DNA from: a virus | Strand: one strand, 5' to 3' | Virus record (IMG/VR): IMGVR_UViG_3300050139_000095 | Span: 96,331-160,330 of that record | DNA: 64,000 nt | Part shown: positions 3,556 to 51,441 of the stretch, piece after piece | Position numbering within the stretch: the first letter of the stretch is position 1 | How the letters are laid out: the number at the start of each line of letters is the position of its first letter | The notes under the pieces: generated by a model | What the model was told of the DNA's origin: nothing | What the model saw: the letters and a program-made list of their open reading frames with translations, nothing else | Databases searched by the model: none | Translations under genes and position numbers: made by a program

Positions 3556-4050
3556 ATGAAATCGCTTTACTACATCGACATGATTTGGACTCCGCTGGTG
3601 GCGATCACGCTGATCGAGTTCCACCTGCGCACGTTCGGGTTCACTCCTACGCTGGCGTTTACATTCGCTGGCGGCGTGTTGCTGTGGACCTTCATGGAAT
3701 ATGTTATCCACAGAGTTCTCCACATCACGAGACATCCTGGGCACTTCAGGCACCATGCCTATCCCGTGGAACAGAACGGGCCGGGAGCATTGCAAACGAT
3801 CATCGTGATGGCGCTCATGTACGGAATTTTCCAATTGATTGGAGGATTCATATTCGCGTCAGGCTTCGAGGCGGGGCTGTTGAGCGGTCTCGCGGTCTAT
3901 CTTTTCGTGCATCATGGCATCCACCTGACCACCATCTTCCCGAATAGTAAGCTGCGGATTATGCATGAGAATCATCATGCAGGTATCGGCGAGGAAGTCT
4001 TCGGAGTCACGACCACCCTTTGGGATCGGTTGTTCAATATCTTTAAGTAG
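3556..4050 (+). CDS. fatty acid hydroxylase / sterol desaturase superfamily membrane protein, 164 aa
   Basis: ATG 3556 is chosen because ttggga lies just before it and the protein then begins MKSLYYIDM; a TTG at 3538 is possible. The histidine clusters of the di-iron membrane hydroxylase superfamily are present in order: HRVLH, HFRHHAY, a later HHGIH and MHENHH. They are interleaved with hydrophobic helices (about residues 10-50 and 85-125). Family members oxidise lipids such as fatty acids, sterols or carotenoids in the membrane. In a phage this would be an auxiliary metabolic gene altering host membrane lipid; the substrate cannot be read from sequence. One dispersed 14-bp palindrome lies inside at 3830-3843. 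Confidence 0.8.
   Translation: MKSLYYIDMIWTPLVAITLIEFHLRTFGFTPTLAFTFAGGVLLWTFMEYVIHRVLHITRHPGHFRHHAYPVEQNGPGALQTIIVMALMYGIFQLIGGFIFASGFEAGLLSGLAVYLFVHHGIHLTTIFPNSKLRIMHENHHAGIGEEVFGVTTTLWDRLFNIFK
3830..3843. repeat. dispersed palindrome copy 1 (TCCAATTGATTGGA)
   Basis: Exact match to TCCAATYRATTGGA, centre TG. It lies inside the coding sequence of the hydroxylase-like gene (encoding FQLIGG), so it is not obviously a promoter element. One of nine exact copies in the window. Confidence 0.75.
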
Positions 4051-12181: not shown

Positions 12182-12358
12182 GAACTGGCTCCCGATACGG
12201 TGGATGAAAAGTATATCGAATCTGTATACCGGCCATCATCCTTAAACCAGACATTTAAACGCGGCATGTAAAGATTTCATCTGTGTTCATTAAATAGCTT
12301 TTGATATTTCCAATCGATTGGAATACATCAATTCACTATATTTGAAATGGAGGTTCTG
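12182..12358. promoter_or_regulatory. divergent control region between response regulator and plus-strand genes
   Basis: 177 bases without a clear gene. On the minus strand, TATACT (12210-12215) is a candidate -10 about 29 bases before the regulator ATG, and gggagcc precedes that ATG. GTATA (12211-12215) and GTATAC (12224-12229) form a small dyad. The dispersed palindrome TTCCAATCGATTGGAA sits at 12308-12323, about 35 bases ahead of the plus-strand ATG at 12359, which has ggaggttctg. Probably a bidirectional promoter region. Confidence 0.5.
12308..12323. repeat. dispersed palindrome copy 2 (TTCCAATCGATTGGAA)
   Basis: A perfect 16-bp palindrome containing the 14-bp core TCCAATCGATTGGA, centre CG. 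It lies in the divergent control region between the response regulator and the plus-strand genes. Confidence 0.8.
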
Positions 12359-32457: not shown

Positions 32458-33846
32458 ATGCGACTTAAAGAAGACCTAGACCTTTTCGGAATGCCACTGG
32501 TTGAAAAGTTCGACCGCGCTATCAAAACGATGGGTGGTAATTCAGTTGAGATTTTCAAGAATCCATCACGCCAGGAAATGAAAGAGATCGCGCAGCACAA
32601 CGAGGCTCGCGGGTTCCTGGTTGGCAATGATCTCTACGTTTGGAGCGCGACCGGAGCAATCCACCATCACGTAGCTGAAGAGATGAAGTTCCCGCGTGAT
32701 GCAATCGCGCTGAACATAGGTGTGCATACCGATGGTAAATCATATTGGGTGAACGTGTCCGACTGGAATGTTGGCGGCCCTTGGGATCACAATCCAAAGG
32801 TCAAAGAACAAATTCTAAATCATCCGATGCTGAAGTTGGTTCGTGATCGCGGTCCTGAGTTTGAGATCGGATACTTCGATGAAGCGATTGTCGGCGATTG
32901 GTCTGAGGCTGATAAGAAGGCAGTGGGCGAAGCTGGCTATCCGAATCCAGTTCAAGACTTCGATGACAACGTGGATGCAGTGAGAGGTCCAAAGCAAGCC
33001 AAGTTCGGCGAAGCCAAGGCTCCGAAGATAACCGTCAGTAAAAAAGATGACGAGATCAAAGTTGAAATGAAAGGCATCGGTAGCGCGAGCGGCCATGACC
33101 TATCAGACTTTGGATTCTGGTTTGAGAAAGAAGATGATGACGAATCACTTCCTCAGTACCACACGATTTTTATTTTCGAGCATTTGGAAGTGGATGCGAA
33201 ATATCAGGGGAAAGGTTATGGCCGTGAGTTGGTCATGGCCTTGATCAAGGAAGTAAAGAAGGCAAAGATCCCAGCGATATTCATGAACGCTTCGCCCATG
33301 GGAGCGCACAAGAGTTTGGATAAAGATGAACTACAAAAGTTTTACGAAAGTTGTGGCTTCAAGAATTACGAAGGTCATAGCGCCGGAGCCATCATGTATA
33401 TGGAACTCCAAAAGCAAGAGATGGCAGAGACGACTAACAAAACTCCTGATCAAGCGGATCTCGATTCGGCTTTTTCGGGCGTTAACCTGGAGCCTTACAA
33501 AGACGCCATCGACAAAGGGCAATACATTGAGATCCCTCTTAAGGATGCAAAGAAGATCCTGGTAATCCATCACAACACTTATGACGCTGATGTTGAAAAA
33601 TTCATGAAGGTCATGGCCGCAGATCCAATCGTTTTGTTTCAGGTTGGAAAGAAACTATACGCGCACGATGGCCAACACCGATTAAATTTTGCGATCAAGA
33701 ACAACCTTCCGTCGATCTCGGCGTATGTGATAAAGCTTGATCCGATTCATTTGGATGGCATGGAGAACGATGGAACTTTTGATCCTGATCGCAATGGATG
33801 GACTCGTGCCGACAGTCAACCTATACAGGTGGATGCGCCATGGTAA
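32458..33846 (+). CDS. tagged multi-domain protein: N-terminal tag, GNAT acetyltransferase-like, ParB-like end, 462 aa
   Basis: Residues 2-16 (RLKEDLDLFGMPLVE) form the tag shared with neighbours. About 25-165 is an unrecognised domain. About 245-310 has GNAT features: LEVDAKYQGKGYGRELVMAL (Q/R-x-x-G-x-G/A acetyl-CoA loop) and LQKFYESCGFKNY. The end (about 375-440) has KKLYAHDGQHRLNFA, a ParB/sulfiredoxin-like D-G-x-H-R core. Fusion of these domains suggests a chromatin- or DNA-associated effector. Overlaps the following ParB-like gene by 7 bases. Confidence 0.65.
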   Translation: MRLKEDLDLFGMPLVEKFDRAIKTMGGNSVEIFKNPSRQEMKEIAQHNEARGFLVGNDLYVWSATGAIHHHVAEEMKFPRDAIALNIGVHTDGKSYWVNVSDWNVGGPWDHNPKVKEQILNHPMLKLVRDRGPEFEIGYFDEAIVGDWSEADKKAVGEAGYPNPVQDFDDNVDAVRGPKQAKFGEAKAPKITVSKKDDEIKVEMKGIGSASGHDLSDFGFWFEKEDDDESLPQYHTIFIFEHLEVDAKYQGKGYGRELVMALIKEVKKAKIPAIFMNASPMGAHKSLDKDELQKFYESCGFKNYEGHSAGAIMYMELQKQEMAETTNKTPDQADLDSAFSGVNLEPYKDAIDKGQYIEIPLKDAKKILVIHHNTYDADVEKFMKVMAADPIVLFQVGKKLYAHDGQHRLNFAIKNNLPSISAYVIKLDPIHLDGMENDGTFDPDRNGWTRADSQPIQVDAPW

Positions 33847-34295
33847 AGAGGCTGACGGAAAATATTGATAGCTTTGGAATGCCTTTATTTGAAGCCAACA
33901 TTTCGGCTGATCAGTTGATTGATAATTGGGGAAATGCCCAAGGCGAAGATGACATGGCGAAAAGATTCCGCGACACTGGTTACGATTTTAACTCTTTGGT
34001 TCCGCATGTGATTGATCATTATGACGAATACAAAGAGACCATGATTGAGCCAAAAGATATTGCTCCGAATGCCGTTAAGTCTTGGCTTGATCCGATGAGT
34101 AAAGAAGAAGAAGTTTATGCGCAGGAGTATTCAAAGAAACCAGCGGAGACAGCGCCACCAGTTGTGTTGCGTCCGAGCACTAGCGGTGGTGGATATAAGT
34201 GGCAGGTAGTTGATGGGCGTCATAGGATACGTGCGGCGGCGATTCGCGGCGGCAAGGTGAAGGCCGCCATTCCAATTGGTAAATCAAAGGTGTGA
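33840..34295 (+). CDS. tagged ParB-like protein, 151 aa
   Basis: ATG 33840. Residues 2-16 (VKRLTENIDSFGMPLFE) are the shared tag. The C-terminal WQVVDGRHRIRAAAIRGGKV has the G-R-H-R core of ParB/Srx-type domains, with a V-K-A-A-I-P strand after it. There is no HTH segment like classical ParB, so it may be a nuclease- or CTP-binding-type fragment. Immediate neighbours carry the same tag. Confidence 0.6.
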   Translation: MVKRLTENIDSFGMPLFEANISADQLIDNWGNAQGEDDMAKRFRDTGYDFNSLVPHVIDHYDEYKETMIEPKDIAPNAVKSWLDPMSKEEEVYAQEYSKKPAETAPPVVLRPSTSGGGYKWQVVDGRHRIRAAAIRGGKVKAAIPIGKSKV

Positions 34296-34937
34296 TTGAT
34301 GAAAAAGTTAATTGAGAAGGTGGATAGTTTCGGTATGCCATTCATGGAAGGTTACAAGCCACTGCGCGAAGAAAAGGAATCATTCCTGCCAAGTAAATTG
34401 GTCATGGTTGATCTTGAAATGACTGGCGTGGTTCCCGAGCGCGACGAGATAATCCAGATCGCAATGATCAAGCTTGTGCTCCAGGGCAACCAGTACGTCG
34501 AAGAAGGCGAGCCTCTGGAGATTTTTCCGCATACCAACGAAGAGCCGTCGAATGATTTCCACCGTAAGTTCCTGATGGACATCTTTGCCAAAGCTAGAGA
34601 ATCAACAATCGAGATCGCCGACTGCGGTCCACTGATTGAAGATTGGCTTGGCGACTGGAAGGGCAAAGCGATGCCGGTCGGCGACTGCGTGCCGCAGGAC
34701 ATGATGTTCCTCTATGCGAATGGGATTCTCACTCGCAATGACATCGTGAATGAAGGGCCAGTGCCGGGAACATTTCACTATGAGTTCTTTGAAATCGAGC
34801 CGCTGAAGTCTTTGTCGCGCACGAAGACCGGCAAGAAGGAATCTTTGGAGTTAGATAAAGGCATACACAACGCTCTCGTTGACTGCCGGAATCAAACCAT
34901 TGAACTGAACCATTACATCAGTGTGTTGCTCTCATAA
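34296..34937 (+). CDS. tagged DEDD (oligoribonuclease-like) 3'-5' exonuclease, 213 aa
   Basis: Tag in residues 4-18 (KLIEKVDSFGMPFME). Then LVMVDLEMTGVVPERDEIIQ (motif I, D-x-E), VGDCVPQDMMFLYANG (motif II region) and HNALVDCRNQ (motif III, H-x4-D), as in oligoribonuclease/DnaQ-type enzymes. These degrade short RNA or DNA from the 3' end. The tag precedes an otherwise ordinary exonuclease, so it is an added targeting element. Confidence 0.75.
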   Translation: MMKKLIEKVDSFGMPFMEGYKPLREEKESFLPSKLVMVDLEMTGVVPERDEIIQIAMIKLVLQGNQYVEEGEPLEIFPHTNEEPSNDFHRKFLMDIFAKARESTIEIADCGPLIEDWLGDWKGKAMPVGDCVPQDMMFLYANGILTRNDIVNEGPVPGTFHYEFFEIEPLKSLSRTKTGKKESLELDKGIHNALVDCRNQTIELNHYISVLLS

Positions 34938-35307: not shown

Positions 35308-36066
35308 ATGAAAAACATAATCATTGCCTTAATTGGCACAATCTTACTGTCATCTTGTAACCACACCAACAGCGCACCGGCTCCATCACCTTCAGTGGTG
35401 ACACCGGCTCCTGTACCGGCACCGGCTCCTACGCCGACGCCACCGCCCTCGCCCTCTCTCTTAGACCAAATGATTGCGAACGGAGTTCCTAAAGCCGCAG
35501 CGACTGAAGCTATGGCGAAGTACGCAACCTTCAAGAGCCGCGCCACCAACAGTGCTTGGCTTACGGTAATTGATTTTACGAAACCGTCAGGCCAAAAGCG
35601 GATGTACATGGTGAACACTGCGACTGGCGCTGTGACTGCGATCTATGTGGCTCACGGATCAGGATCAGATCCTAACGCCACCGGCACGCCGTACAAGTTC
35701 TCGAACATTCCCAACACACACATGTCATCACTCGGCGCTTACTTGGTGAGCGAGAAGTTCATGTTCGCCAACCATGGTGAGTCGATGAAGCTTGATGGCT
35801 TGGAGAATACGGATAGCCTTGTTCGTGAGCGCGGGATCTATATGCATCCTGCAACCTACGTGTCGGCTGGCCGCTCGAAGATGGGAATGAGTTGGGGTTG
35901 CTTCGCGCTCTCGACTACGGATATTGTTACGGCGCTCAGTCGTTTGTCTGGCGGAAGTTTTCTTTACGCTTATTCAACCGTGAAGAGTCAGTCGATGGAC
36001 AAACTCTTGAGTCCTGATTATCACTTCGTGAACGAGGGCGAAGGCGCTCCGCTCAACGGCGATTAA
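35308..36066 (+). CDS. lipoprotein murein L,D-transpeptidase-like (YkuD-type), 252 aa
   Basis: MKNIIIALIGTILLSSCNHT is a lipobox signal (LSSC). Residues 20-50 are a Pro-rich spacer. The catalytic part matches the murein L,D-transpeptidase domain: MYMVNTATGAVTAIYVAHGS, then ERGIYMHPATYVSAGRSKMG and SWGCFALS with the likely catalytic Cys in MSWGCFALS. Such enzymes crosslink or modify peptidoglycan or release its tails. In a phage this may remodel or protect the host cell wall. Ends four bases inside the convergent helicase gene. Confidence 0.75.
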   Translation: MKNIIIALIGTILLSSCNHTNSAPAPSPSVVTPAPVPAPAPTPTPPPSPSLLDQMIANGVPKAAATEAMAKYATFKSRATNSAWLTVIDFTKPSGQKRMYMVNTATGAVTAIYVAHGSGSDPNATGTPYKFSNIPNTHMSSLGAYLVSEKFMFANHGESMKLDGLENTDSLVRERGIYMHPATYVSAGRSKMGMSWGCFALSTTDIVTALSRLSGGSFLYAYSTVKSQSMDKLLSPDYHFVNEGEGAPLNGD

Positions 36067-37904
36067 TTTTTATCTTTACTGAAGTACGCGCCGAGCAAAT
36101 TGCTGGCGTCGTACTTGGAGATTTGTTCCATCGGAACATTTGAGAGTTTGAACTTCTTGATGAGCGCATATTGCTTTTCAGAACATCTCTCGCCCTTAGC
36201 TCTCTTCTTCCACGGCGCTTTGATCCACAGCAAGCGATCCCAATCCGGATACTGAGTCAGCATGTGATCTTCGATTTTCTTTGCAGCGTCAGGGCCATTG
36301 GCTCCACGGAAGGCAATGATTCGTTCGCCGGGGAAAGTGCGCGGGGCCGCGAGTGGCTTTCGCATCATGATCGAATCGAATCCGCCAAGGCCGTTCGGAG
36401 TGATGACAACCTGATACCTCATGCCGCTGTCCTTGTCTGAGTGGATCAGCTTGAGGTTCGTGCCGGAGCGGAAATACCGATAGCGTGAATCGAAATAGTC
36501 AGAGTTGTCATCGAAGGTTGAGTAGATGTCGTCGGCCACTTCTTTGACATCGCCAGGAGCGAAGCGCGGCTTTTCACCAGGAGCCAAACCTTTAGTGTTT
36601 GTTGGATTCGCACGCTCGAAGCGCAGCTTCATCTCGCTCCATGACGCGCAGTTGTAGGGGTTGAAATATTCTTTCTCGCCGATCATGGTGTCGGCCAAGT
36701 TCACACATTCGAGGAAGTCATGTCCTTCACAGTCGAAGTCCTGTCGAAAGTTAAAGATTTTTGCCACGGTTGCGGTCTTGTCCGAGTGCTCATCCACGAT
36801 CTCGACAATGTGAGCAACATCCTTTCCTTCCCACAAGCGCGTGGAGCGACCTGCAATTTGGGTGAGGAGAAGTTGGGACTTTGTAGGGCGTGCGTTGATG
36901 ATGAGATCGAGTTTTCCGTAATTAAAACCTTCCGTAAGAATCCCAAAGTTCGCCAGGATCTTCAGCTTTCCTGATTTGAAATCAGCGATAATTTTGCGGC
37001 GCTCTTCTTTGGGCATGTCTCCGGAGATCCCTTCGGCGGAAACTCCAATCGATTGGAATTGTTCGGTGAGCCGGAAGACGTGCTCAAGGTCGGTCGCAAA
37101 GATCAGGGCCTGTTTGTCTGGGAATCTTTTCTGCCAAGTCTCGACGATCAGAGTATTTCGTTCGACGTTATTGACGGCGGCGGCGAGGTCTTTAAGGTTG
37201 AAGTCACCGGCAGTGGTACGGACTCGTGCAAGATCGGTTTTAGAGTCCACGCGCCAGCTTACGATAGGAGCGAGGTACTTCTGCCTTGTGCCAGCCACGA
37301 TGTCCAGATTGAGCGCCACGCTGTCGAAGATGCCGGAGAGAGATTCGTCATCGGCCCGTTTGGGAGTCGCGGTCACGCCGACGATAAGAGTGCCGGTCTT
37401 CTCGGGATTGAAATAGGAGATCACATATTGGTAGGTGCTCGCGATGCAATGATGTGCTTCGTCAAACATGATCACGCCAAAATGATCGGGCGAGAATTTT
37501 GTGATCCGATTGCTGTTACTGCGCCCAATGGTTTGGACGGACGCGAGAACGACATGCGCCTGTTGGCTGGCTTCGCGGTCGGCTTGTTCAATTTCGATAA
37601 TGTAATCGGGACCGATAACGGCGGCGATTTCTTCGGCGGCTTGTTCGAGAAGTTCTTCGCGGTGAGCCACCATCATCACTGGCTTTTTAAGAACTGTCAG
37701 ACACCAAAGAGCGATAGCTCCCATGGTTGGAGTTTTGCCCAATCCAGTGGCCATGATGACTAGCTGACGCAGCGACTTACGTGCCTCGTAATCTTTGATG
37801 ATTTTTAATTTGGCCTGATCTTGGTACGCTCGCATGGTAATGACGCCAGGTCGCGGCGCTTGCGGCCACGCCATCGGAACCGAATCAAAAATCGACTGTT
37901 GCAT
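36063..37904 (-). CDS. SF2 DEAD/DEAH-box helicase, 613 aa
   Basis: Minus strand; ATG at 37904 follows taggggtacgggg, preferred over a longer start at 37949. Motifs: IMATGLGKT (I), LASVQTIGR (Ic), IMFDEAHH (II, DEAH), GVTATP (III), LIFATD (IV region), ANFGILTEGF (V) and QIAGRSTRLW (VI). The C-terminal region (about 430-613) is unrecognised. Resembles phage and bacterial RAD25/DEAD-type helicases for replication, recombination or transcription. Contains palindrome copy 6 within its coding sequence. Confidence 0.9.
   Translation of the reverse strand: MQQSIFDSVPMAWPQAPRPGVITMRAYQDQAKLKIIKDYEARKSLRQLVIMATGLGKTPTMGAIALWCLTVLKKPVMMVAHREELLEQAAEEIAAVIGPDYIIEIEQADREASQQAHVVLASVQTIGRSNSNRITKFSPDHFGVIMFDEAHHCIASTYQYVISYFNPEKTGTLIVGVTATPKRADDESLSGIFDSVALNLDIVAGTRQKYLAPIVSWRVDSKTDLARVRTTAGDFNLKDLAAAVNNVERNTLIVETWQKRFPDKQALIFATDLEHVFRLTEQFQSIGVSAEGISGDMPKEERRKIIADFKSGKLKILANFGILTEGFNYGKLDLIINARPTKSQLLLTQIAGRSTRLWEGKDVAHIVEIVDEHSDKTATVAKIFNFRQDFDCEGHDFLECVNLADTMIGEKEYFNPYNCASWSEMKLRFERANPTNTKGLAPGEKPRFAPGDVKEVADDIYSTFDDNSDYFDSRYRYFRSGTNLKLIHSDKDSGMRYQVVITPNGLGGFDSIMMRKPLAAPRTFPGERIIAFRGANGPDAAKKIEDHMLTQYPDWDRLLWIKAPWKKRAKGERCSEKQYALIKKFKLSNVPMEQISKYDASNLLGAYFSKDKN
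37044..37057. repeat. dispersed palindrome copy 6 (TCCAATCGATTGGA)
   Basis: Exact core, centre CG. Inside the helicase gene (codes for a QSIGV-type stretch on the minus strand), so a promoter role is unlikely. Confidence 0.75.
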
Positions 37905-38034
37905 CCCCGTACCCCTATGTGGTGTTCTGTGGTTGCTAACATACCACATGACAATGTGTAAAGCGGCTTGTAGGGTTTTTGGGATGAACGATTCGTATGT
38001 TATTCATCATGAGGTTTTAAAAAAGGAGAGCGCA

Positions 38035-39150
38035 GTGGATCTAGTTCAGTTGGATGACGAAGTTGTTAAGCAAGAAGAACTAAAGATCGAAGACACAAAA
38101 AAGGTGGCCGTTAAGTTCGGAATCCTTGGTTCCGGGCAAGCGGGAAATGCGCTGGCCGATTCTTTTTATTCCATTGGATACCGGCGCGTAGTCGCCATCA
38201 ATTCCACGGATCGCGACATGCAACGGATTCAAATCCCGGTCAGCAATCGTTATCTGTTGGGCGGCATCGAAGGCGCTGGGAAAGTTCCTGAGTCTGGTCG
38301 CAAAGCCACAGAGCGCGATTACGACGAGATCATGAAGGTCGTTCGCAAATCTTTCGGCAAAGACATTGATCATATTTTAGTTTGCGCAGGACTCGGCGGC
38401 GGCACTGGCGGCGGCTCGGTGAACATCCTTGTGGATCTCTGCCAGGAATATTTGGCTTCCATCGGCGTGTCTGATGTTGAAAAGAAAGTTGGCGTGATCG
38501 CCACTCTCCCTACCAAGGACGAAAGTTCGGCGGTTCAGCACAATGCACTCACCGGATTGAAGAGCCTCTTCGATCTCGCAGAGAAAGGTAAACTATCTCC
38601 GCTGATCTTGGTGGACAACGCGAGGGCGCTTTCTCTCTACGGCGGAGCGAGCGTCGTGGATGCATGGAGCAAAATTAATAGAAATGTTGTCGGAATGTTC
38701 GATTACTTCAACGTGCTCTCCGCAGCGAACGATTCTTCTGTGCATGTCACATTTGATCCCCAAGACTACAAAACCGTTCTTCAATCTGGAGTTATGACCT
38801 TCGGTCGCGCCATCATCGGCGGCTACGACGTTGGCGTGATCTCGGATGCAGTTAAACAGAACGTGAAGAAAGGTTTGCTTGTGGAGGATGTGGACTTCTC
38901 GCAAGCCACCCACGGCGCGGCCATTCTTCTCGGCGACAAAGAGTCGCTGTCAAAGATTTCACAGGACGCTTTGGAAGATGCGTTCGGGACACTGAATCGC
39001 ATGATGAAGCAAGGCAAGGGCACGAAGCTTCATCGCGGAGTGTACGAAGGCGGAAAAGATTGTTACGTGTTTACGATCATGTCCGGCCTTGGCCGACCAA
39101 CAAAGCGCCTTGCGGAAATCGAAGCTAAGGCTGGAAAGGCATACCCATGA
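38035..39150 (+). CDS. tubulin/FtsZ-superfamily GTPase, 371 aa
   Basis: GTG 38035 with AAAAAGGAGAGCGCA upstream is chosen over weaker upstream ATGs. GTP-binding features: FGILGSGQAGNALADSF (residues about 29-45) and the tubulin signature GLGGGTGGGS (about 119-128), then LILVDNAR and a long helical C-terminal part (FDYFNVLSAANDSS; MKQGKGTKLH). Phage tubulins (PhuZ, TubZ-like) form filaments that centre or segregate phage DNA or nuclei. Length 371 fits such proteins. It is followed by a coupled one-helix membrane peptide, and the opposite strand carries the helicase. PhuZ or TubZ assignment needs tree placement. Confidence 0.88.
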   Translation: MDLVQLDDEVVKQEELKIEDTKKVAVKFGILGSGQAGNALADSFYSIGYRRVVAINSTDRDMQRIQIPVSNRYLLGGIEGAGKVPESGRKATERDYDEIMKVVRKSFGKDIDHILVCAGLGGGTGGGSVNILVDLCQEYLASIGVSDVEKKVGVIATLPTKDESSAVQHNALTGLKSLFDLAEKGKLSPLILVDNARALSLYGGASVVDAWSKINRNVVGMFDYFNVLSAANDSSVHVTFDPQDYKTVLQSGVMTFGRAIIGGYDVGVISDAVKQNVKKGLLVEDVDFSQATHGAAILLGDKESLSKISQDALEDAFGTLNRMMKQGKGTKLHRGVYEGGKDCYVFTIMSGLGRPTKRLAEIEAKAGKAYP

Positions 39151-39260
39151 ATCGTTTACGAAGTGGACTCCACGCTGTGGTCATTGCTCTTGGTGCTAAT
39201 GCTTTGGTCTGTATTGGCATCCTTGGCTTTATTGTATTCTTGTTTCGTTTGAAAAAATGA
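39147..39260 (+). CDS. membrane peptide coupled to tubulin-like gene, 37 aa
   Basis: ATGA overlap with the tubulin stop; TGA at 39258-39260. Product has one transmembrane helix (LHAVVIALGANALVCIGILG) and basic ends (MNRLRSG; FRLKK). It may anchor or tether the filament system to the membrane, or be a small independent protein. Confidence 0.6.
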   Translation: MNRLRSGLHAVVIALGANALVCIGILGFIVFLFRLKK

Positions 39261-39385
39261 ATTTGATGGTCGCCGGTAAAAGGAAAAAAGGCTTGGGACC
39301 TTGCCAGAATCAGGAGCCTTGCGGCGCAAGCCAATACCCATTAAGATCGTCTGTAGCTGGCAGACCGGCGACCAGTTTTATGTAG
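39257..39385 (+). CDS. possible small basic protein, 42 aa
   Basis: ATGA overlap with the membrane peptide. Product starts MNLMVAGKRKKGLGPCQNQE and is basic with two Cys. There is a chance that this stretch is instead a leader. The stop overlaps the -35 area of the following promoter. Confidence 0.35.
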   Translation: MNLMVAGKRKKGLGPCQNQEPCGASQYPLRSSVAGRPATSFM

Positions 39386-39427
39386 TGACAATTTTAAGTT
39401 GGGATATAATTACCGCATAGGGCGGTA
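39383..39427 (+). promoter_or_regulatory. promoter -10 TATAAT plus perfect dyad operator-like site
   Basis: TATAAT at 39405-39410 is a perfect -10; an acceptable -35 (tagtga, 39383-39388) lies 16 bases upstream. Right behind it, TACCGC (39411-39416) and GCGGTA (39422-39427) form a perfect dyad spaced by five bases, which overlaps the likely start of transcription. Probably a regulated promoter for the following genes (ATG 39431). Confidence 0.55.
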
Positions 39428-39430
39428 ACT

Positions 39431-39622
39431 ATGAACATCAAAAGCATTGTCAGCGACCTTTCGGTTGTGGAAGATATTGAGCACATCACTGTGCAGGACA
39501 TCGACAAAGTAGTGAGCGCACTGGCTGATCAAATGGCCCAAGAGGGAAAGATCGCCGACATCCTGATCGCGCACGGTTTGAAACGCATGAAGCGAGTTAG
39601 GTACAAACGAAGGAAATCATGA
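39431..39622 (+). CDS. hypothetical protein, 63 aa
   Basis: ATG 39431 behind the TATAAT/dyad region. Starts MNIKSIVSDLSVVEDIEHIT and ends in a basic KRMKRVRYKRRKS tail. Small helical protein. ATGA overlap with the methyltransferase gene. Confidence 0.55.
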   Translation: MNIKSIVSDLSVVEDIEHITVQDIDKVVSALADQMAQEGKIADILIAHGLKRMKRVRYKRRKS

Positions 39623-40128
39623 CGGTCGAATATTTTTCTGAAACGCAAAAGGTTAGGCCGCACGTTTTTCCATTTCTTCGCGGGAACATTTTAGACATCG
39701 GATGCGGGACAGAAAAGATTTGCGCCGGGGCCATCGGAGTAGACGTTCGCAAAACTGAAGCGGTCGATCATGTGATCGGCGGCTTCGATAAGTTGAGCGA
39801 AGAGTTGAAGAAGATCGGACTGACCGAGAAGTGGGATACCATTTTCTCCAGCCACTGCCTTGAACATTTGCGCGACGATTGGGCGGCGATTGAGGATTGG
39901 TGCAACCTTCTCGCGAAGAAGGGCAACCTGATCTTGTATCTTCCCGACGATGATCACTATGACAACGATTCAAATACTGAACATCTGCACCGTTACAAAT
40001 ACGCTGAGTTCATGAAAGAGTTTGGAGCGCGGTGTTCTTTCATGGAGATCGCGCACAGTGGCCCACACGTCGGCCATGACCTTTATTCTTTCTATCTGGT
40101 GGCGACCAACACCTGCAAATGGGACTAA
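39619..40128 (+). CDS. class I SAM methyltransferase-like protein, 169 aa
   Basis: ATGA-coupled. GNILDIGCGTEKICAGAIGV is the SAM-binding motif I, GVDVRKTEAV follows, and DTIFSSHCLEHLRDDWAAIE with LILYLPDDDHYD is the post-I and motif III region. Typical of phage and host methyltransferases acting on small molecules or sugars; the substrate is unclear. Ends about 98 bases before the terminase. Confidence 0.75.
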   Translation: MTVEYFSETQKVRPHVFPFLRGNILDIGCGTEKICAGAIGVDVRKTEAVDHVIGGFDKLSEELKKIGLTEKWDTIFSSHCLEHLRDDWAAIEDWCNLLAKKGNLILYLPDDDHYDNDSNTEHLHRYKYAEFMKEFGARCSFMEIAHSGPHVGHDLYSFYLVATNTCKWD

Positions 40129-40187
40129 CCAGACCTAAGCCTTAGCCTTGCTATGATGGGCATTGTCAAATATCCTGAGTGGACGTT

Positions 40188-40201
40188 TCCAATTGATTGG
40201 A
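40188..40201. repeat. dispersed palindrome copy 7 (TCCAATTGATTGGA)
   Basis: Exact core, centre TG. In the gap between the methyltransferase and the terminase, about 26 bases ahead of the chosen terminase start; a TTG in the same reading frame lies within it. Confidence 0.8.
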
Positions 40202-40226
40202 GTCGTTTCATCCACAAGGATCGTTT

Positions 40227-42248
40227 GTGATTATCTCACAGTCGGGGCGTCACCGCTCCGTAAGAACTGACAAAGAACTCGCAGACTTAATCGGTCAAGA
40301 GTACGAGTCTATGGATACTGAAGAGCGAGAAATTTTCGCGCAGATCCTTGAGGATTACAAAGCCACAGGCACATCACCTTTTGTTGAAGTCGCAAGCGCC
40401 AGCATTTATAAAACGCGGCCCGTCTCGATGGAAACTTTCCTGACAGATCCGTACTACCTGGGCGATGCGGGAAAGACTTTGTTCCCAATCCTGAAGGACG
40501 ACATGACCGATATGTTTTCCGGCAGGTACGAAGAGGCCAACTTCTCAGGCTCTATCGGTTACGGAAAATCTTCTCTTGGCCGGTTCTCGCTGATTCGCAT
40601 GGTCTACGAAGCTTCGCTCCTTTGGAATCCGCAAGAAGTTTACGACATCACATCTACAGATAAAATTGAGTTCGCGTGTATATCGGTGACGGAAGACGCG
40701 GCCAATGAAGTTGTGTTTGATGGCGTGAACTCGATCATAAAACAGTCGCCGTATTTCCAGGAAAAGTTTAAGCCGCTAAAGGTTACGAGTGAAGCCGGAA
40801 TAGTTTTTCCCAACAACATTATCATTCCTCCAGGTATGTCCACGGAGAAATCGGCCATCGGTCGTAACATTCTCGGTTGCGTGCTCGATGAAGGTAACTT
40901 CTTCAGGCGCGTGGCCCACTCGGTAGAAGTGCGTGACTATGCAAAAGAGATTTACGATTCGATCAAGCGTCGTATGAAATCTCGTTTCGAGAGAAATGGT
41001 AAACTGCCGGGAATAATTCTTCTGCTATCTTCAAAAAAGAATGTAAACAGTTTTACTGAACAACGGATTCGCGTATCAACTGACGATCCGAAAGTTTTTG
41101 TTCGCGAGTACAGCCTTTGGGATGTTCACGATAAGAAACGGTATTCACCAAAAAGGTTTAGAGTAGCGATTGGAACAGAGACAACGCTATCGAGAATCCT
41201 CGTTCCCAAGGAACAGCCGCCTGAAGGCTCGACGGTCATTGATGTGCCGGAAGATTTCAGGAAAGATTTCGAGGACGATCTTGACGGATCTATCCGCGAC
41301 ATCGCCGGGTACTCAACGATTGCGATCACGCCGTTCATTCAGCGGCGAAACAAAATTGCTGAAGCGATTGATACCACGCGGGTACATCCGTTCAGCGAAC
41401 ATATTTGGCAGCAAGACGTGCCGGGAGTTATTCGCTGGGACATGCTGGCCAAACAGGACATCCATCAAGTTTGGAAGCCGCTACTCAATCCTTCGGCCCC
41501 TCGCCATGTGCATCTGGATTTATCAAAGAACAAAGATAGAACCGGCCTAGCCATTGGTCATATCGGCGGGTGGACACAGGTCCAAGCCATTGGCGGCGAA
41601 ACTGAGATGGCACCGATCTTTGTTCCGGATTTTACGTTGGCGATTGCGGCTCCGCCAAATGGCGAGATCATTTACTCGGAAATTCGTCGGATCATTTATG
41701 AGTTCGCGCTACATGGGTACTTCATCAAGCTGGTGTCGGCGGATAGTTTCCAATCGCTCGCCATGCTCCAGACCATGCGGCAGCAAGGATTCAATACCAA
41801 AGTCGTCTCTGTGGATCTCATGGGGCCTTACGATGTGCTCAAGCAAGCCTTCTATGAGAACAGGATGCGGATGTACCGCTACGAACCTTTGCTCACGGAA
41901 CTCCGGACGCTGGAAAAGAACTGGAAGACCGGCAAAGTGGATCACCCGGACGGCGGAACAAAAGACGTTGCCGATGCATTGACGGGGGTAGTCACAACAC
42001 TTTCAGAGGTCGCTCAACAATATTCTGGAACTTCAGTGACCGCGCCACCAGGAAGCAAGTACGCTGACGACGATGAACAGTGGGTACTCGAATCCGCAAT
42101 ACCCGTTGAAAAATCAAATAAAGACAATAACAATGAGGCTTGGAAAGACGAAGTTGAGAAAAGAAACCAGGCACGCGAGCAAGGTTCAGACTTGAGTTTG
42201 TTTCCTGAAGCTGGCAGGGGTTTCCAACTGCCGTTTGAAATGGGGTAA
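40227..42248 (+). CDS. large terminase subunit, 673 aa
   Basis: GTG 40227 with aaggatcgttt upstream; a TTG at 40197 lies inside palindrome copy 7. ATPase part: SGSIGYGKSSLGRFSL (Walker A-like) and LGCVLDEGNFF (Walker B region). Nuclease part: VHLDLSKNKDRTGLAIGH, VSADSFQSL and KDVADALTGV give the acidic residues of the RNase H-fold nuclease. Terminase packages DNA into the prohead by ATP hydrolysis and cuts it. It starts the head operon. Confidence 0.9.
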   Translation: MIISQSGRHRSVRTDKELADLIGQEYESMDTEEREIFAQILEDYKATGTSPFVEVASASIYKTRPVSMETFLTDPYYLGDAGKTLFPILKDDMTDMFSGRYEEANFSGSIGYGKSSLGRFSLIRMVYEASLLWNPQEVYDITSTDKIEFACISVTEDAANEVVFDGVNSIIKQSPYFQEKFKPLKVTSEAGIVFPNNIIIPPGMSTEKSAIGRNILGCVLDEGNFFRRVAHSVEVRDYAKEIYDSIKRRMKSRFERNGKLPGIILLLSSKKNVNSFTEQRIRVSTDDPKVFVREYSLWDVHDKKRYSPKRFRVAIGTETTLSRILVPKEQPPEGSTVIDVPEDFRKDFEDDLDGSIRDIAGYSTIAITPFIQRRNKIAEAIDTTRVHPFSEHIWQQDVPGVIRWDMLAKQDIHQVWKPLLNPSAPRHVHLDLSKNKDRTGLAIGHIGGWTQVQAIGGETEMAPIFVPDFTLAIAAPPNGEIIYSEIRRIIYEFALHGYFIKLVSADSFQSLAMLQTMRQQGFNTKVVSVDLMGPYDVLKQAFYENRMRMYRYEPLLTELRTLEKNWKTGKVDHPDGGTKDVADALTGVVTTLSEVAQQYSGTSVTAPPGSKYADDDEQWVLESAIPVEKSNKDNNNEAWKDEVEKRNQAREQGSDLSLFPEAGRGFQLPFEMG

Positions 42249-44772: not shown

Positions 44773-47700
44773 GTGGAATTAACGGAGCGTTACAAAGTTG
44801 TGCGCTCCAAGCGTCCGAACTCAAAACTTCGGACGGCCAGGCGGCGTGCGTACCGGAAGAACAAGAGCAAGGCGAAGCGTGCGGCTAAACGCAATCGCAG
44901 GAAGCCAAGCTTCAAACGCCGGTTGAAACGCATCCGTCAGCTTCGTAAGCGGATGCACATCAAGCCCGGATCTCGCAGGAGATTACGGGTGGCAGACAGC
45001 GGTAGAGTCGGCAACATGAGTGAGGTTAGAGTGGATTTGGAAAATTCTTGGGATCAGGAAAAGATGCTCGATTCATATCTCACCACTATGTTGTGGTCTT
45101 CCGTTGGTGACAATGATGAGCCGCTCGATGATGTCCACAGCATCGAAGATATTTCCCCAGAGGCTTTAGCCAAATCAAAAAAAGACATCCATGAATTTTG
45201 CGTACAATCCGGTGATCTTTTGGACGGCCTTGATGAAGCACAAGTGGGCCATGACTTCTGGCTCACTCGCTGCGGCCACGGCGCTGGCTTTTGGGATGGC
45301 GATTATGAAAAAGAAGTCGGCGAAAAATTGACAGACATTTCAAAAAAATTCGGTAACGAAGATCCGTATGTTGGCGACGACAAAAAGATCCACATCATGG
45401 GTGAAAGCAAATTGGGGAGTGACATGAAAAACATCATCGCTGAAGACAAACTGAAGGCCCTCCAAGACAAGATCGCGAAGGCCCAGGCCGATGGTGATGA
45501 TGCTCTTGCGAAACAACTCAACTATGAGTTGAGCGACATGGTTAACAACGACAAGAAAGAAAAAGAACAATTGAGTCCCGAAGAAAAAGCGATCCTCGCA
45601 AACACCGGACTCGATACCGGAAAAACGGAATCCATTGCAAAATGGGGCAAGATGGTTGAGGCGCGTAAAGAAAAGCTTGCCGAAGCCAGTGATTCAAATT
45701 TCGGTGAAGAATTTGAATACACTCACGAGTTGGAAAAGGAATTGGAAAAGTACGGTTACTTGGATGACATCGAAGTTACCCGCGAAGAAGACCGCACCAA
45801 GTTCGCCAAACTGAAGTCGAAGATCGCAAAGGATCTGGCGCGTACACACAAACTTTTTTTGGATCAAACCCATGCCGATAAGTACATGGAAAATGCCAAG
45901 GATGCGGCCAAAGGGTTCGTAGAAGATTGCGCCAAGAAAGATGCTCCTGCACTCAAGGGGAAACTTGAAATTGAAGTTGGCGAACGCATCGGTGACAACT
46001 ATGTAGGTTCTGGCAACGGCGCTCTATATATTACGCTGAAGGCGGCTGGCGCAGAGGACGTTGAACTTGAGCCTGGTGCCCTTCACTACAGCGGATCTTC
46101 CGATGTGGTGAATGAAGATATGGGAAATTGGAATTGGGTATTCTGGTTGGCAAGCGACGATTCTCCTTTCCAAGACTCAAGCTGGGTTGATTCTTACGAG
46201 TACGACCGCATTGGTCAGGCTCTTGAACAATTCGCGCAGACTTTGAGCGAATCAGATTTACGCTTCGAGTTGAAGAACGCCTTCAATCAAATCGAGCGCG
46301 ACCTGCATTTGGCCGACCAAGATGTTGAAGAAGAGTCAGTTGATCTTGAGTTCAAGCATCCCAAGGGAGTTAACTCAAAGAAAAATGGCAAAGGTAAACC
46401 AGAGGCGGCTGATCCTGTTGATGAATTGAATCCTGCGCCAGAGACTAAAGTTCAAGAAGATACTGCCGGTGGCGAGAAGGTCATGATCGCGGCTGTTGAG
46501 CGCCTTGCTCAAGAGTGCAATGACTACCTTAAGAAAAAAGGCATCAAGGCCCCGAGCAACAAAATGTATAAGAACGACGTAATCAAGTTCACGCATCTGA
46601 GCTACGACGCGGCCATGACTCAAAAAGAAGACGGCAAAGATGTTCACTATCCTGAGATGGTCAGCTTCAATATTGAATCCCGCAACACCATGAAGCTTTC
46701 CTATCTGGCCGATGGCAGGATCATCCGCGAAGGCCAAGACTTGTCCAGCAAGGGCATGACCAAAGAACAACTGTTTGAAAAGGTCGCAGACGATGTGGCC
46801 GAGTGGTCAAACGCGGCAGAGCGCCGCAAGTCGGCCAAGACCGAAGATGAAGGCAGCAAGAAGGTTGGAGATTACGAGATCATCAACCACGGCGTTGAAG
46901 GTGATCAGTATTTCCAAGGTCATGGCATCTCTCATTCAAAATGGGATGATTGCGCAACGGGCATCGGCATGAGTGAGCGCGAAGCTTATGAAGACGCACT
47001 CGAACAGCTTGCTCAAAACGGTTGGGAAATTTCTCCGGAAATGGAAGCCGATGTTCAGAAAGCCAGCGATAAAGACATAGTTGGAGATCGTGAAGATAGT
47101 TACGTTTACATTTCTGTAGATGTAAAAGGTGAAGGACCTAAAGAGGCCACCGAGTCTGAAAAGCGTATCGCGAATCTTCGCGAGTCGATCAATGAATTTG
47201 AAAAAGCTTTGGAGCCGACAAGCGGCGCTATATATATTGAAGCGTTCAAAACTTCTGTACGAGTGGCCAAAAATCTTGTCGAGGCATATCAGAAGATTGT
47301 TGATGCCGCGCCCGTGAAACAGATCGAAGAGTCTGTGGATGATTTTAATATCCCTCTTCCTGGATTCGAGCATAACGAAATGCGCGACGACAACTTATCT
47401 GAGGATTTCTCAGAACTGTTGGGCGTAAAGAAACCAAAGACGATTGTCGAAGAGGCCAAGGTTCGTGAAGCCAAGTCAGACACCGAAGCTGCGAAGCTTG
47501 TGATCGAGGATCTGAAGAGCCTTCAGGAACAAAGCGCCAAGCTTGCGACAGCCGCATCAAAAGGTTTGCTCGACGAAGCTGAAGCCAAAAACTTCCTGCG
47601 TAAGACTCAGAAATATTTGGACGGAGCGATTGATGCTCTGACTGAAGATGAAGACGAAGATGATAAAGAATGGCCACTTCACATTGACCACATAAAAAAA

Positions 47701-50700
47701 GCCATGAAGATGGTTGAGAATCCTCGCGAGTGGTTAAGTGCCATGGCAGTGGATAAGCAATTGGCCAAGGCTCTTGAACTTTATCAAGAGCGCGGTGAGT
47801 ACGATGGAACACTACAAAGTGCCCGTGAATGCCTTGAACTTGCGGCGTTCGAGTTTACTGAATCTGATGATTCTGATCCAGACGATGACGGCGGCGGAGC
47901 GGAGCATGAAGAAGAGCATGATGAGCCAGAAGAAGGCGACATGTACTTCAGCGACTCTGGACCTTTAGGTTCAAAGACTTCGGTTTCGGTCGAAGGCAAA
48001 CACATAGGCGAGTTCAATTCTCAGGAAGAGGCTGAAAAAGCCGCTAGGGATTGGATGGTCAAGAATAATTACCATCCCAATATTTGGTACATCTCTGATC
48101 ATGGCAACGTCCATCCGTACACCTTAGAGACCGATGAATCGGTTGAAGAGGCTCGCGTTACCACTGACAAAGTGGCCAAGGCGTTTGCTCAAGGGTTGGC
48201 CAAAAAAGATGGCAACAACTCGACTGATGGAAGTATTTTTTCTCTCCACGGGAACAACATCGTAAAGCGCGATGAGAATGGCGACATCTTTATTACTGAC
48301 GCCGGATGGCCCACGCCGACGACTCGTGAGCGCATCAATGGTGTGCTCCAGGCTTTAGATATTGATGCTTCCGTCTGGAAGGTTAAGGGCAAGCAATCAA
48401 TTCAAATTGGCCGCGATAAAAAACCGTGGGATGGCGCGTGGACGAAGGTTGGGAATCAATCTCCGAACGGCGGCGGCGAAGACGAATCAGTTCAGGAAAA
48501 GCTGGACAATCCTTTACCCGCAGCGAATCGCAAGATGACTCATAAGGACGTGTTGAAAGTTCGCGACCTAAAAGCGAAGCTTGCCGGTATGGATCGCCAA
48601 GATCCCGAGTACGACAAGACTCAACTTTTGATCAACAAGATCCTTGGCTATACCGCCGTGACCGAAAAGTATCTTGGCTTTGACAAATTGAAGAGCAAGA
48701 TCGCGCACGAGAAAAATCCGCCAAAAGATCCTGGCGCAGTGGCCGCAAGCATTGGCCGCGAGAAGTACGGCAAGGAAAAATTCCAGAAGGCCGCCGCTGC
48801 CGGTAAAAAATTGGGTGAGGATGCAGTCAGCGAGGACGAAGGCGAAGACGTTGGCGGAGAGATTAATATCCAGATTTACGCTGACATCGTAGAGAAGGGT
48901 TCGATCCATTCTGGCGATAAGGTTGTGCTTGAGGAAACTACTGCGCGTGACAAGATCAGCGAAGTGTCAAACTTGTTGGCTGAAAAGCTTGGCGACATGT
49001 TTGAACTCCAACAAAAGGTTCAGTGGTTCCCCGGCTCTGACGGCAAGGACGGACTCTACACTTCGCAGAGCATGTTCATTGAACAGGAAGACTTTAAAAA
49101 GTTGGCAGAATTCTTTCCTGAATCAGACGCCGCAGAATTTTCTGAAGCAAAAGAAGTTGAGGTCATGTTCGTTCTTGGAATCTCTGATCCCAAGAAAGAA
49201 CTCACTGGCCGCGAGTTGAAGAGCGACGGCAAGGAAGAGGGCTTGAACAGCCCCATGCAAGATGTCGAAGAGGCGGTCAAGGTCATCATGAAGACCAAGC
49301 CTTTGCGCGATGAAGCGATTCGCATGGTCGAGAGCCGCGCCAAAGTGGTTCACTACGATGCATTCGTCATGAAGCACAGCCCTGTACTCATCAATGCAAA
49401 AATTAATATTGGTTCAGTTTATGGAGAAGAACTTCAGCGCGAGTTGAAGGTGGCTGTTGTTGAATCAAAAAAATCGCTCAAAGAAGATTCTATGAGCGGC
49501 CAGGTTTTCAATCAGGACAATAAGTTCTATGTCAAAGATCCAAAGAGCGGTGGCTACTATCCTATGAAGGATCAGAATGGAGCCAGTAAGCTTGTTGGAG
49601 CCATGGTCAACTTCAATGTTGATCAGGACAAGAATGCCAATGTGGTTGAAGACGGCGGCGCTGGAATTGGCGTGGCCGCGATTGGCGCTGGTCCCATGGG
49701 CGGAAAAATGCTCAGGGATCGCAAAAAAAATTATGAAAAGCTTTTGGGAAAAGACGACAAGAAGGAAGACATCTACGGCAACAACGATCCTGAAGTTGGC
49801 GCTGGAACAATCGGCGGAAAAAAAGATCCGAAGCCAGTTAAGGAAGATTACAAATTTAGCCCTGGAGAAAAAGAGTTCTTCGACAAGCATTCTATTGGTG
49901 ACATGACTGGCGCTATGACCGACGAGGCCAAGGAAGCTTTGTGCGTTGATTTGATCAAAGCCGGTTTTCAAGAGACCGCAGATCACATCAAGGCAATGTC
50001 GAAAGACGAATTTGAAGACTTCTTGATGAATGAAATTTATGACGGATGTGAAGAGTCGGAGATGCGTTCGTTCGATCACGCTGGCAACGGTGGTCATCCT
50101 GAAACAGTTGAGTCATCGGGCAAGAAAGTTTCTCCCGAAGACGAAAAGAAGATCGAAGCTTTTGCGAAATCTCAGAAGGCCGTGAAGTACATCGCCATTC
50201 CTTCACAGAACAAAGTGGACATTTACCACGATAATGTTCATGCGACCGAATATGAACTCGATTCTGTGTTGAGTGGATCTCCCAAGAAGGCCAAGTCTGG
50301 CGAAGGTAAGACCAATGGCGGAGAAAAAGTTGAAGCCAAAGATGATGTAAAAGCCATTTTGGTCGCCTTAAATTCAACCGGCAGCATGGGTGGTAAATAT
50401 CCTATCGGCAACAAAGAGTTGACCGTTAAGGTCAAGGCACTCGAAGCCGCAGGAAAAATTAAATACGATTCGATGAAGGACAAATGGACCAGAGCCAATG
50501 ACAAATCTTCCTTCGGCGAAGCCAAAGGTGCGAAGTGGATCATACAAGATTGGGCTGGCAACGTATGCTTCGGCGGAAAAGATTTTAATAGTTTCGATGA
50601 TGCTGAAGAGTGGTTGTCAGTAAAGCTTGGAGATGAGTACGAGACTGATCGCGAAGAGTATGAAATCGTTAAAGGCGGTTCACGCGATGCGAATTATCTA

Positions 50701-51441
50701 GATCCAAAAGATCCTCGCGGCGGAAAAAAAGTTAAAGAAGGATCAACCAAAAAGGCCGGTAAAAAACTTACCGAGCGCGAAGGCCAAGGATTGATTGAAA
50801 ATCATCCCGAGTGGGCAGAGATGGTGAAGGCCGAAGTACAAGAGGCTGGAGAAGACATCAGTCGCAAGTACGAAACTTATTCTGATTCCGTTGAAGAAGT
50901 AGAGCACAAGTCACGCGACGGATTCATTTCGTCTAATGACGGTGGATACCAGTGGAAAGGTTTCGCTGATACTTCCAGCCTGATGGGATCTGGCCGTGGC
51001 CATTCAATGCCGAAGAAGGCCGTCGCAGCTTTGGAAAAAGATTATGAGCAAAATAATCAGTACGCGCTTGACGCCTTCAAAGAAGAGCACGCAGAAGAGA
51101 TCGCAGGAATCCCTGAAGATAAATTGAATTACCATGACCTCTACGACATGGGAAAAGGTGATCTCGCTGAAAAGTTGAGTGAGTTAGAAAATACTCACAA
51201 CAGCGATGAGCAATCCACTTTCATGTTCATGGTGATGGTGATGTTCAATGCAGGGGAAGACGGCGGCGAGCATAGCATGACCGTTCAAGCCGTGATCAAT
51301 TGGGAAGCGCCCTATCACCGCAACAAGAGCCAGTTCGAGGATTACAAGCAAGTTGAATTTGATTTCAAAGATGAGACTGATCTTGGAAAGAAACTTCACG
51401 ACGCTATGGAACAGTGCCTCAAGCACATTAACGCGAGGTAG
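44773..51441 (+). CDS. very large multi-domain head-module protein, 2222 aa
   Basis: GTG 44773, one base after the upstream stop. Residues 1-75 are extremely basic (LRTARRRAYRKNKSKAKRAA). Then follow many small phage-type domains: HDFWLTRCGHGAGFWDGDY with LTDISKKFGNEDPYVGDDKK (about 159-200), a LYITLKAAGAEDVEL block (about 415), a SIFSLHGNNIVKRD block (about 1155), and long acidic linkers. The tag KQIEESVDDFNIP occurs at about 849-861. Not similar to any known T4 core protein. Position between portal and protease suggests a prohead core or packaged protein, possibly cut into several products by the protease. Confidence 0.7.
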   Translation: MELTERYKVVRSKRPNSKLRTARRRAYRKNKSKAKRAAKRNRRKPSFKRRLKRIRQLRKRMHIKPGSRRRLRVADSGRVGNMSEVRVDLENSWDQEKMLDSYLTTMLWSSVGDNDEPLDDVHSIEDISPEALAKSKKDIHEFCVQSGDLLDGLDEAQVGHDFWLTRCGHGAGFWDGDYEKEVGEKLTDISKKFGNEDPYVGDDKKIHIMGESKLGSDMKNIIAEDKLKALQDKIAKAQADGDDALAKQLNYELSDMVNNDKKEKEQLSPEEKAILANTGLDTGKTESIAKWGKMVEARKEKLAEASDSNFGEEFEYTHELEKELEKYGYLDDIEVTREEDRTKFAKLKSKIAKDLARTHKLFLDQTHADKYMENAKDAAKGFVEDCAKKDAPALKGKLEIEVGERIGDNYVGSGNGALYITLKAAGAEDVELEPGALHYSGSSDVVNEDMGNWNWVFWLASDDSPFQDSSWVDSYEYDRIGQALEQFAQTLSESDLRFELKNAFNQIERDLHLADQDVEEESVDLEFKHPKGVNSKKNGKGKPEAADPVDELNPAPETKVQEDTAGGEKVMIAAVERLAQECNDYLKKKGIKAPSNKMYKNDVIKFTHLSYDAAMTQKEDGKDVHYPEMVSFNIESRNTMKLSYLADGRIIREGQDLSSKGMTKEQLFEKVADDVAEWSNAAERRKSAKTEDEGSKKVGDYEIINHGVEGDQYFQGHGISHSKWDDCATGIGMSEREAYEDALEQLAQNGWEISPEMEADVQKASDKDIVGDREDSYVYISVDVKGEGPKEATESEKRIANLRESINEFEKALEPTSGAIYIEAFKTSVRVAKNLVEAYQKIVDAAPVKQIEESVDDFNIPLPGFEHNEMRDDNLSEDFSELLGVKKPKTIVEEAKVREAKSDTEAAKLVIEDLKSLQEQSAKLATAASKGLLDEAEAKNFLRKTQKYLDGAIDALTEDEDEDDKEWPLHIDHIKKAMKMVENPREWLSAMAVDKQLAKALELYQERGEYDGTLQSARECLELAAFEFTESDDSDPDDDGGGAEHEEEHDEPEEGDMYFSDSGPLGSKTSVSVEGKHIGEFNSQEEAEKAARDWMVKNNYHPNIWYISDHGNVHPYTLETDESVEEARVTTDKVAKAFAQGLAKKDGNNSTDGSIFSLHGNNIVKRDENGDIFITDAGWPTPTTRERINGVLQALDIDASVWKVKGKQSIQIGRDKKPWDGAWTKVGNQSPNGGGEDESVQEKLDNPLPAANRKMTHKDVLKVRDLKAKLAGMDRQDPEYDKTQLLINKILGYTAVTEKYLGFDKLKSKIAHEKNPPKDPGAVAASIGREKYGKEKFQKAAAAGKKLGEDAVSEDEGEDVGGEINIQIYADIVEKGSIHSGDKVVLEETTARDKISEVSNLLAEKLGDMFELQQKVQWFPGSDGKDGLYTSQSMFIEQEDFKKLAEFFPESDAAEFSEAKEVEVMFVLGISDPKKELTGRELKSDGKEEGLNSPMQDVEEAVKVIMKTKPLRDEAIRMVESRAKVVHYDAFVMKHSPVLINAKINIGSVYGEELQRELKVAVVESKKSLKEDSMSGQVFNQDNKFYVKDPKSGGYYPMKDQNGASKLVGAMVNFNVDQDKNANVVEDGGAGIGVAAIGAGPMGGKMLRDRKKNYEKLLGKDDKKEDIYGNNDPEVGAGTIGGKKDPKPVKEDYKFSPGEKEFFDKHSIGDMTGAMTDEAKEALCVDLIKAGFQETADHIKAMSKDEFEDFLMNEIYDGCEESEMRSFDHAGNGGHPETVESSGKKVSPEDEKKIEAFAKSQKAVKYIAIPSQNKVDIYHDNVHATEYELDSVLSGSPKKAKSGEGKTNGGEKVEAKDDVKAILVALNSTGSMGGKYPIGNKELTVKVKALEAAGKIKYDSMKDKWTRANDKSSFGEAKGAKWIIQDWAGNVCFGGKDFNSFDDAEEWLSVKLGDEYETDREEYEIVKGGSRDANYLDPKDPRGGKKVKEGSTKKAGKKLTEREGQGLIENHPEWAEMVKAEVQEAGEDISRKYETYSDSVEEVEHKSRDGFISSNDGGYQWKGFADTSSLMGSGRGHSMPKKAVAALEKDYEQNNQYALDAFKEEHAEEIAGIPEDKLNYHDLYDMGKGDLAEKLSELENTHNSDEQSTFMFMVMVMFNAGEDGGEHSMTVQAVINWEAPYHRNKSQFEDYKQVEFDFKDETDLGKKLHDAMEQCLKHINAR

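Follow-up and report, generated by a model that had tools for sequence, protein, structure and literature searches.

The stretch of viral DNA analysed here (the window) comprises the last 64 kb of an incomplete record of 160,330 bp (G000), which derives from a large, uncultured virus of bacteria. On its plus strand, positions 38035..39150 encode a TubZ-like protein of 371 aa belonging to the tubulin superfamily of GTPases, with a GTG start at 38035, preceded by a strong and fully conserved ribosome-binding stretch (AAAAAAGGAGAGCGC), and a TGA stop at 39148-39150. The original prediction had described a 371-aa GTPase of this superfamily from the motifs GSGQAGN and GGGTGGGS, and both were indeed present in the open reading frame, the former as the T1 nucleotide loop (residues 32-38; 38128..38148, plus strand) and the latter as the T4 tubulin signature (residues 121-128; 38395..38418, plus strand), as seen in the sequence and in an alignment of 47 family proteins. 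The T7 catalytic loop, TFDPQD with D241 and D244, was placed by alignment at 38749..38766 (plus strand), the position at which the relatives L283 and L284 carry an insert. All three loops were intact, catalytic acid included. The protein matched the Pfam family PF00091 (Tubulin) above the cut-off (E 1.9e-11) and TubZ-like_C slightly below it (E 1.9e-5), and a sequence search of the PDB returned TubZ as the nearest protein (3e-13), followed by FtsZ.

A viral contig of 5.7 kb (IMGVR_UViG_3300010371_000647, hereafter L002) was found to encode a tubulin 90% identical to that of the window. The two genes differ by 158 synonymous and 59 other substitutions, distributed as 30/21/166 over codon positions 1/2/3 of 371 codons (166 of 217 at the third position), and this dominance of synonymous, third-position changes indicated that the tubulin is under purifying selection. 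The 371-aa product is almost certainly a functional-looking tubulin-superfamily GTPase.

The tubulin gene sits in a late region, adjoining the gene for the terminase large subunit (terL) and with portal, T4-type protease and Gp23-like capsid genes nearby. A divergently transcribed ResIII/DEAD helicase gene (36063..37949, minus strand) lies 85 bp upstream. Downstream of the tubulin, all on the plus strand, are a small membrane peptide discussed below, a 63-aa protein of unknown family (39431..39622), a methyltransferase-like protein (PF13489; 39619..40128) and terL (40197..42248), whose start is probably the GTG at 40227 as judged from comparison with L002. The order helicase, tubulin, small peptide, 63-aa protein, methyltransferase-like protein and terL is the same in L002. 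A search for a close TerL returned no match; in L168, a syntenic contig with a TerL 47% identical to that of the window, the helicase and terL are direct neighbours and the tubulin cassette is absent between them, and the cassette is thus optional at this place and not fixed in the lineage.

Phage tubulins are chiefly known as PhuZ, the spindle protein of nucleus-forming phages, and as TubZ, which serves the partition of prophages that resemble plasmids, c-st being one example. The search of 50,697 annotated phage records yielded one real relative, gp138 of Bacillus phage G (annotated FtsZ-like; 24.7% identity over 91%), and two matches from a phage collection (L004 and L005) were rejected as bacterial FtsZ contigs. 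Six further phage tubulins (L280-L285), 37-41% identical to that of the window, were recovered by searching under the guidance of TerL and with a profile that had been refined, and a genome scan detected chromosomal relatives in one Myxococcota and two Latescibacterota bins. Of the chromosomal TubZ-like proteins in these Myxococcota and Latescibacterota bins (L024:3863-5662 and L026:4022-5194), one has a long, repeat-like-looking C-terminal extension.

In the final tree, built after the inserts of L283 and L284 had been removed, the eight phage proteins (window, L002 and L280-L285) formed one clade with a support of 99/96. TubZ and phage G formed a clade of their own (95/91), and the eight-phage clade lay outside it, with TubZ as its nearest, sister-like neighbour and with weakly resolved deep branches, the order of which is not firm. 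FtsZ (97/100), CetZ and PhuZ (100/100, on long branches) appeared as separate, well-supported clades. Phylogeny with PhuZ, TubZ and FtsZ had been proposed as a check in the original prediction, and the trees, together with the structural comparison below, indicated that the window tubulin, which falls outside the FtsZ clade, is probably not a duplicate of a host FtsZ; in the AU test, joining the phage clade and FtsZ as one clade was borderline (p 0.058). On sequence grounds, the window tubulin and its seven metagenomic relatives appear to constitute a little-known, distinct phage branch beside TubZ, a placement to be read together with the AU result for the phage clade and PhuZ as sisters, which was not rejected (p 0.43).

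A structural model was built with AlphaFold2 from 36 related sequences, replacing a six-sequence run that had given a pLDDT of 55. The model (pLDDT 89, pTM 0.90) showed the two-domain tubulin fold, and its closest structures in the PDB were those of Bacillus plasmid TubZ (4ei7, 2xka; TM 0.82, Z 40.2, about 20% identity), which has the same T1, T4 and T7 loops; CetZ (Z 36) and FtsZ (Z about 30) were more distant. In BFVD, A0A6J5RW92, which comes from an uncultured Caudovirales phage and bears the label 'FtsZ Cell division GTPase', matched with a TM of 0.88 at 30% identity. With its 452 residues against 371 in the window tubulin, it must carry extra sequence; it is probably a further member of the same family, which would mean that this phage tubulin family is already in public data, unrecognised under an FtsZ label.

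PhuZ of the phiKZ-like jumbo phages, which positions phage DNA and capsids (PMC7950403), is likewise encoded by a phage, and a PhuZ-type spindle for a phage nucleus would suit the large genome and the AU result given above. This function nevertheless seems most improbable for the window tubulin. PhuZ forms its separate clade on long branches and has another T4/T7 pattern, PhuZ models fitted the window model more poorly (TM 0.54-0.60) than TubZ did, and the alignment showed that the acidic C-terminal tail of the PhuZ type is absent from the window tubulin. In addition, the phiKZ shell protein (chimallin), used as query, found no match in the incomplete record.

The phage clade differs from TubZ at its C-terminus. 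Its members end 2-6 residues past the core (6 in the window) and have no C-terminal tail, whereas TubZ and phage G continue for 51-102 residues from the same alignment position (about 60-100 in Bacillus plasmid TubZ and about 51 in phage G gp138). Proteins of the TubZ, PhuZ, CetZ and FtsZ families mostly have 14-102 post-core residues, with the archaeal L047 (4) and the Myxococcota L024 (217) outside this range. The tail of TubZ is required for normal assembly and is bound by TubR and TubY (PMC5322520; PMC7762940), and TubZ truncated in this tail did not assemble in dilute solution but only under crowding (PMC5322520), so that assembly of the tail-less phage tubulin is not to be assumed. Such a clade would provide a natural experiment on the C-tail, showing whether this part, held necessary for TubZ assembly and adaptor binding, is dispensable.

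Both T7-loop aspartates are retained across the phage clade in the alignment. In L283 (2404-5067) and L284 (2443-5064), in-frame inserts of about 345 residues lie directly before the T7 motif TFDRAD, and inspection of their sequences revealed intein-like ends and endonuclease-like middles. Inteins favour conserved active sites. The tail-less clade is old enough for two of its members to have such intein-like inserts at the active site. Separately, the tubulins of L283, L284 and L285 are extended at the N-terminus by an additional domain, about 80-100 residues long (PPPFHxLxxxPG ... WPHxSGFxVxDLLxQLVQ), and adjoin tail-fibre-like genes; through this domain the tubulin might be connected to parts of the virion.

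Since TubZ is the nearest relative by sequence, tree and fold, type III (TubZRC) partition, in which the phage genome would be segregated in the form of a circular plasmid-prophage, a mode proposed for c-st and the plasmid TubZs, had to be weighed. In phage G, a small gene of winged helix-turn-helix appearance lies directly before the tubulin gene and may encode TubR. In the window, however, no tubR was present directly upstream of the tubulin, where the helicase is found instead, unlike every bacillar plasmid TubZ locus examined, all of which have an upstream gene of about 100-120 aa (c-st, pXO1 and pBtoxis entered the comparison through PDB matches). Nor was an iteron centromere (tubC) found near the gene: 37850-38120 contained no direct repeats and 39140-39640 one weak three-copy family. 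The 160-kb record, which is incomplete, was also searched for a MerR-type TubY, and no MerR protein matched. Taken with the missing C-tail and the late setting beside terL, among virion genes, these results make TubZRC partition unlikely here.

Directly downstream of the tubulin gene, two overlapping frames could encode a small hydrophobic peptide. The original prediction had named a 37-aa protein coupled to the tubulin by an ATGA overlap, and such an open reading frame does exist (39147..39260, plus strand), its ATG at 39147 overlapping the TGA stop. Compared with L002, however, the substitutions in this frame are distributed over codon positions 1/2/3 as 14/4/4, with 3 synonymous and 19 not, and relative to the tubulin its third-position changes are too few (Fisher p 3e-5) and its first-position changes too many (p 4e-6). 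On this codon-position pattern it is probably not the constrained frame, and we rejected it as a conserved gene. When the tubulin frame was instead continued past the TGA, the substitutions relative to L002 were distributed as 2/1/10 over 29 codons, a tubulin-like pattern with an excess of synonymous changes (P 0.014). Because these substitutions show constraint in the frame of the tubulin, we took the constrained product to be a 29-aa membrane peptide (VDSTLWSLLLVLMLWSVLASLALLYSCFV; 39163..39252, plus strand; hydropathy 2.3), a call drawn from 13 substitutions between two genomes, with room left for dual coding. The peptide starts 12 nt past the tubulin stop, with GTG in the window and ATG in L002, where its sequence is MDSTLRSLLLVLMLWSVLASFALLYSCFG. 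Both candidate frames resemble membrane helices (hydropathy 2.2-2.6), which accounts for the earlier choice of the 37-aa frame; the membrane tether proposed beside the tubulin thus survives as a small membrane peptide directly downstream, but as a different peptide from the one named.

No constraint is apparent in the four codons between the tubulin stop and the start of the 29-aa peptide, which speaks for a new start rather than readthrough, and TGA is an ordinary stop in the record, ending 78 of 222 predicted genes. It is very unlikely that readthrough of the TGA yields a minor, self-tethering form of the tubulin composed of the core, the four codons and the 29-aa helix as an anchor replacing the lost adaptor tail. 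The peptide would rather be produced by reinitiation after the tubulin stop. That it is a functional partner of the tubulin is conceivable, though we hold this only tentatively; if so, it might help to keep filaments at the membrane, or to regulate them there, in the sub-lineage of the window and L002. The closest parallel to a membrane peptide next to a TubZ-like protein is TubY, a tetrameric, DNA-binding, MerR-type regulator of type III partition that binds membranes and has an amphipathic helix (PMC7762940), and which illustrates that a partner associated with the membrane can form part of a TubZ system. Unlike TubY, the window peptide is a 29-aa hydrophobic helix only, without a DNA-binding domain.

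There is also a considerable chance, if short of even, that the peptide is unrelated to the tubulin or spurious and merely lies downstream in the same transcript, which would be compatible with the filament model proposed below. It adjoins the tubulin in two close phages only, the window and L002, and no such membrane peptide was found after the tubulin in the six relatives L280-L285; furthermore, codon usage does not favour it, the 29-aa frame scoring 0.1 bits and the 37-aa frame 3.9 bits. On the other hand, the constraint in the tubulin frame matches the divergence of the tubulin itself at each codon position, and the start codon is retained as GTG or ATG at a tight spacing.

FtsZ relatives are able to co-assemble, and small phage peptides frequently block division or lyse cells. 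The window tubulin could act during infection as a decoy or inhibitor, inserting into the host Z-ring and blocking division, and the membrane peptide would separately act in lysis or in division inhibition. We consider this quite improbable, as identity is about 25% and the FtsZ C-terminal conserved peptide, the contact site of FtsA, ZipA and SepF, is absent from the window tubulin along with any tail; moreover, the full retention of the catalytic loops argues for turnover of its own rather than poisoning.

The original prediction had further joined the tubulin, the membrane peptide, dispersed palindromes and ParB-like proteins into a three-part positioning system of filament, adaptor and DNA site. 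The palindromes are real: YTCCAATYRATTGGAR occurs in the 160 kb at 24-25 sites with up to two mismatches and at 16 sites with up to one, compared with 0 of the latter in shuffled sequence. The central step of these sites is invariably pyrimidine-purine, and their spacing is more even than chance (CV 0.49, P 0.003). Copies in the window include TTCCAATTGATTGGAG beside the terL start (40187..40202), which is conserved in L002 (3021), CTCCAATCGATTGGAA within the helicase gene (37043..37058) and TTCCAATCGATTGGAA (12308..12323), and others start at 3829, 17647, 18494, 25300, 31243, 44502 and 57667. The ParB-like proteins fared less well within the window, where 32458-33846 contains a GNAT domain and 33840-34295 had no Pfam match; a ParB_N domain was found outside it, at G000:73312-74121.

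Among the matches listed, the YTCCAATYRATTGGAR palindromes mark a set of related contigs, and they are present in L168 although the tubulin cassette is absent there between the helicase and terL. In the wider TerL group, the tubulin-positive records contained TCCAATnnATTGGA (21 copies in G000), CGACCAnTGGTCG (8 in G031) and CGCAAGnnCTTGCG (7 each in G052 and G053), and G054 had no dispersed palindrome family; altogether, four of the six tubulin-bearing records had clear palindrome families, one had a weak family and one had none. Records in which no tubulin was found yet have palindromes of their own, namely TGCAGGnnCCTGCA (48 copies in G034), TATAACnnnGTTATA (9 in G037) and GCTGGCGCCAGC (6 in G014), so that at least three of the eight relatives without a detected tubulin have clear palindromes. 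A smaller, earlier comparison (3/3 versus 1/4) had suggested a tie between palindromes and tubulin, which the larger set did not bear out, and the palindromes were rejected as the DNA site of the tubulin. Because they are equally strong in related phages without a detected tubulin and few or missing in some tubulin phages, the three-part system was not supported; its other parts offered no rescue, the peptide being confined to two phages and TubR, TubY and an iteron centromere not having been found. The palindromes resemble dispersed operators or architectural sites, their evolution being independent of the tubulin, for which sites the stoperators of mycobacteriophages are a comparison class.

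We infer, at about even probability, that the window tubulin is expressed late and forms a cytomotive, TubZ-like filament serving to position phage DNA or capsids. In this model, the tubulin would form head-to-tail polymers with GTP, in which each active site is completed by the T7 loop of the adjoining subunit, and late in infection the filament would position replicated phage DNA or capsids. Lacking a tail to which an adaptor of the TubR type could bind, the protein would need other contacts, which could be provided by its N-terminal extension, the core surface or partners. A phage tubulin branch in which neither chimallin nor TubR has been recognised would be a third lineage in which to ask how such filaments are used.

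Behind the membrane peptide lies a conserved non-coding, RNA-like element (39267..39378, plus strand), which is closed by a perfect 11-bp stem (39267-39277 with 39364-39374) followed by TTTT. Over 39300-39349, 49 of 50 bases are identical between the window and L002, compared with mostly 55% to 88% identity in the surrounding coding DNA. An Rfam search with the element gave no match, no second copy was found in the genome, and L002 alone matched its core among the viral contigs searched. Its folding energy is ordinary (z -1.4 and -1.2), and it may be an RNA with a defined structure, an element resembling a terminator, or a site for packaging or replication. An imperfect inverted repeat at 39406-39432, directly before the 63-aa open reading frame and largely retained in L002, is a possible operator or translational control site.

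Elsewhere in the window, 35308-36066 encodes a lipoprotein-like L,D-transpeptidase (YkuD_2), the presence of which in a phage suggests a diderm host or a wall-modifying function. A short motif resembling SVDxFGMPLxE, with the variants FGMPLVE, FGMPLFE, FGMPFME, FNIPLPGFE and WGLPTLGE, is common to the proteins encoded at 32458-33846, 33798-34295, 34296-34937, 44773-51441 and 58422-60713; given the T4-type protease at 52827-54365, it is possibly a capsid-targeting or prohead-protease signal.
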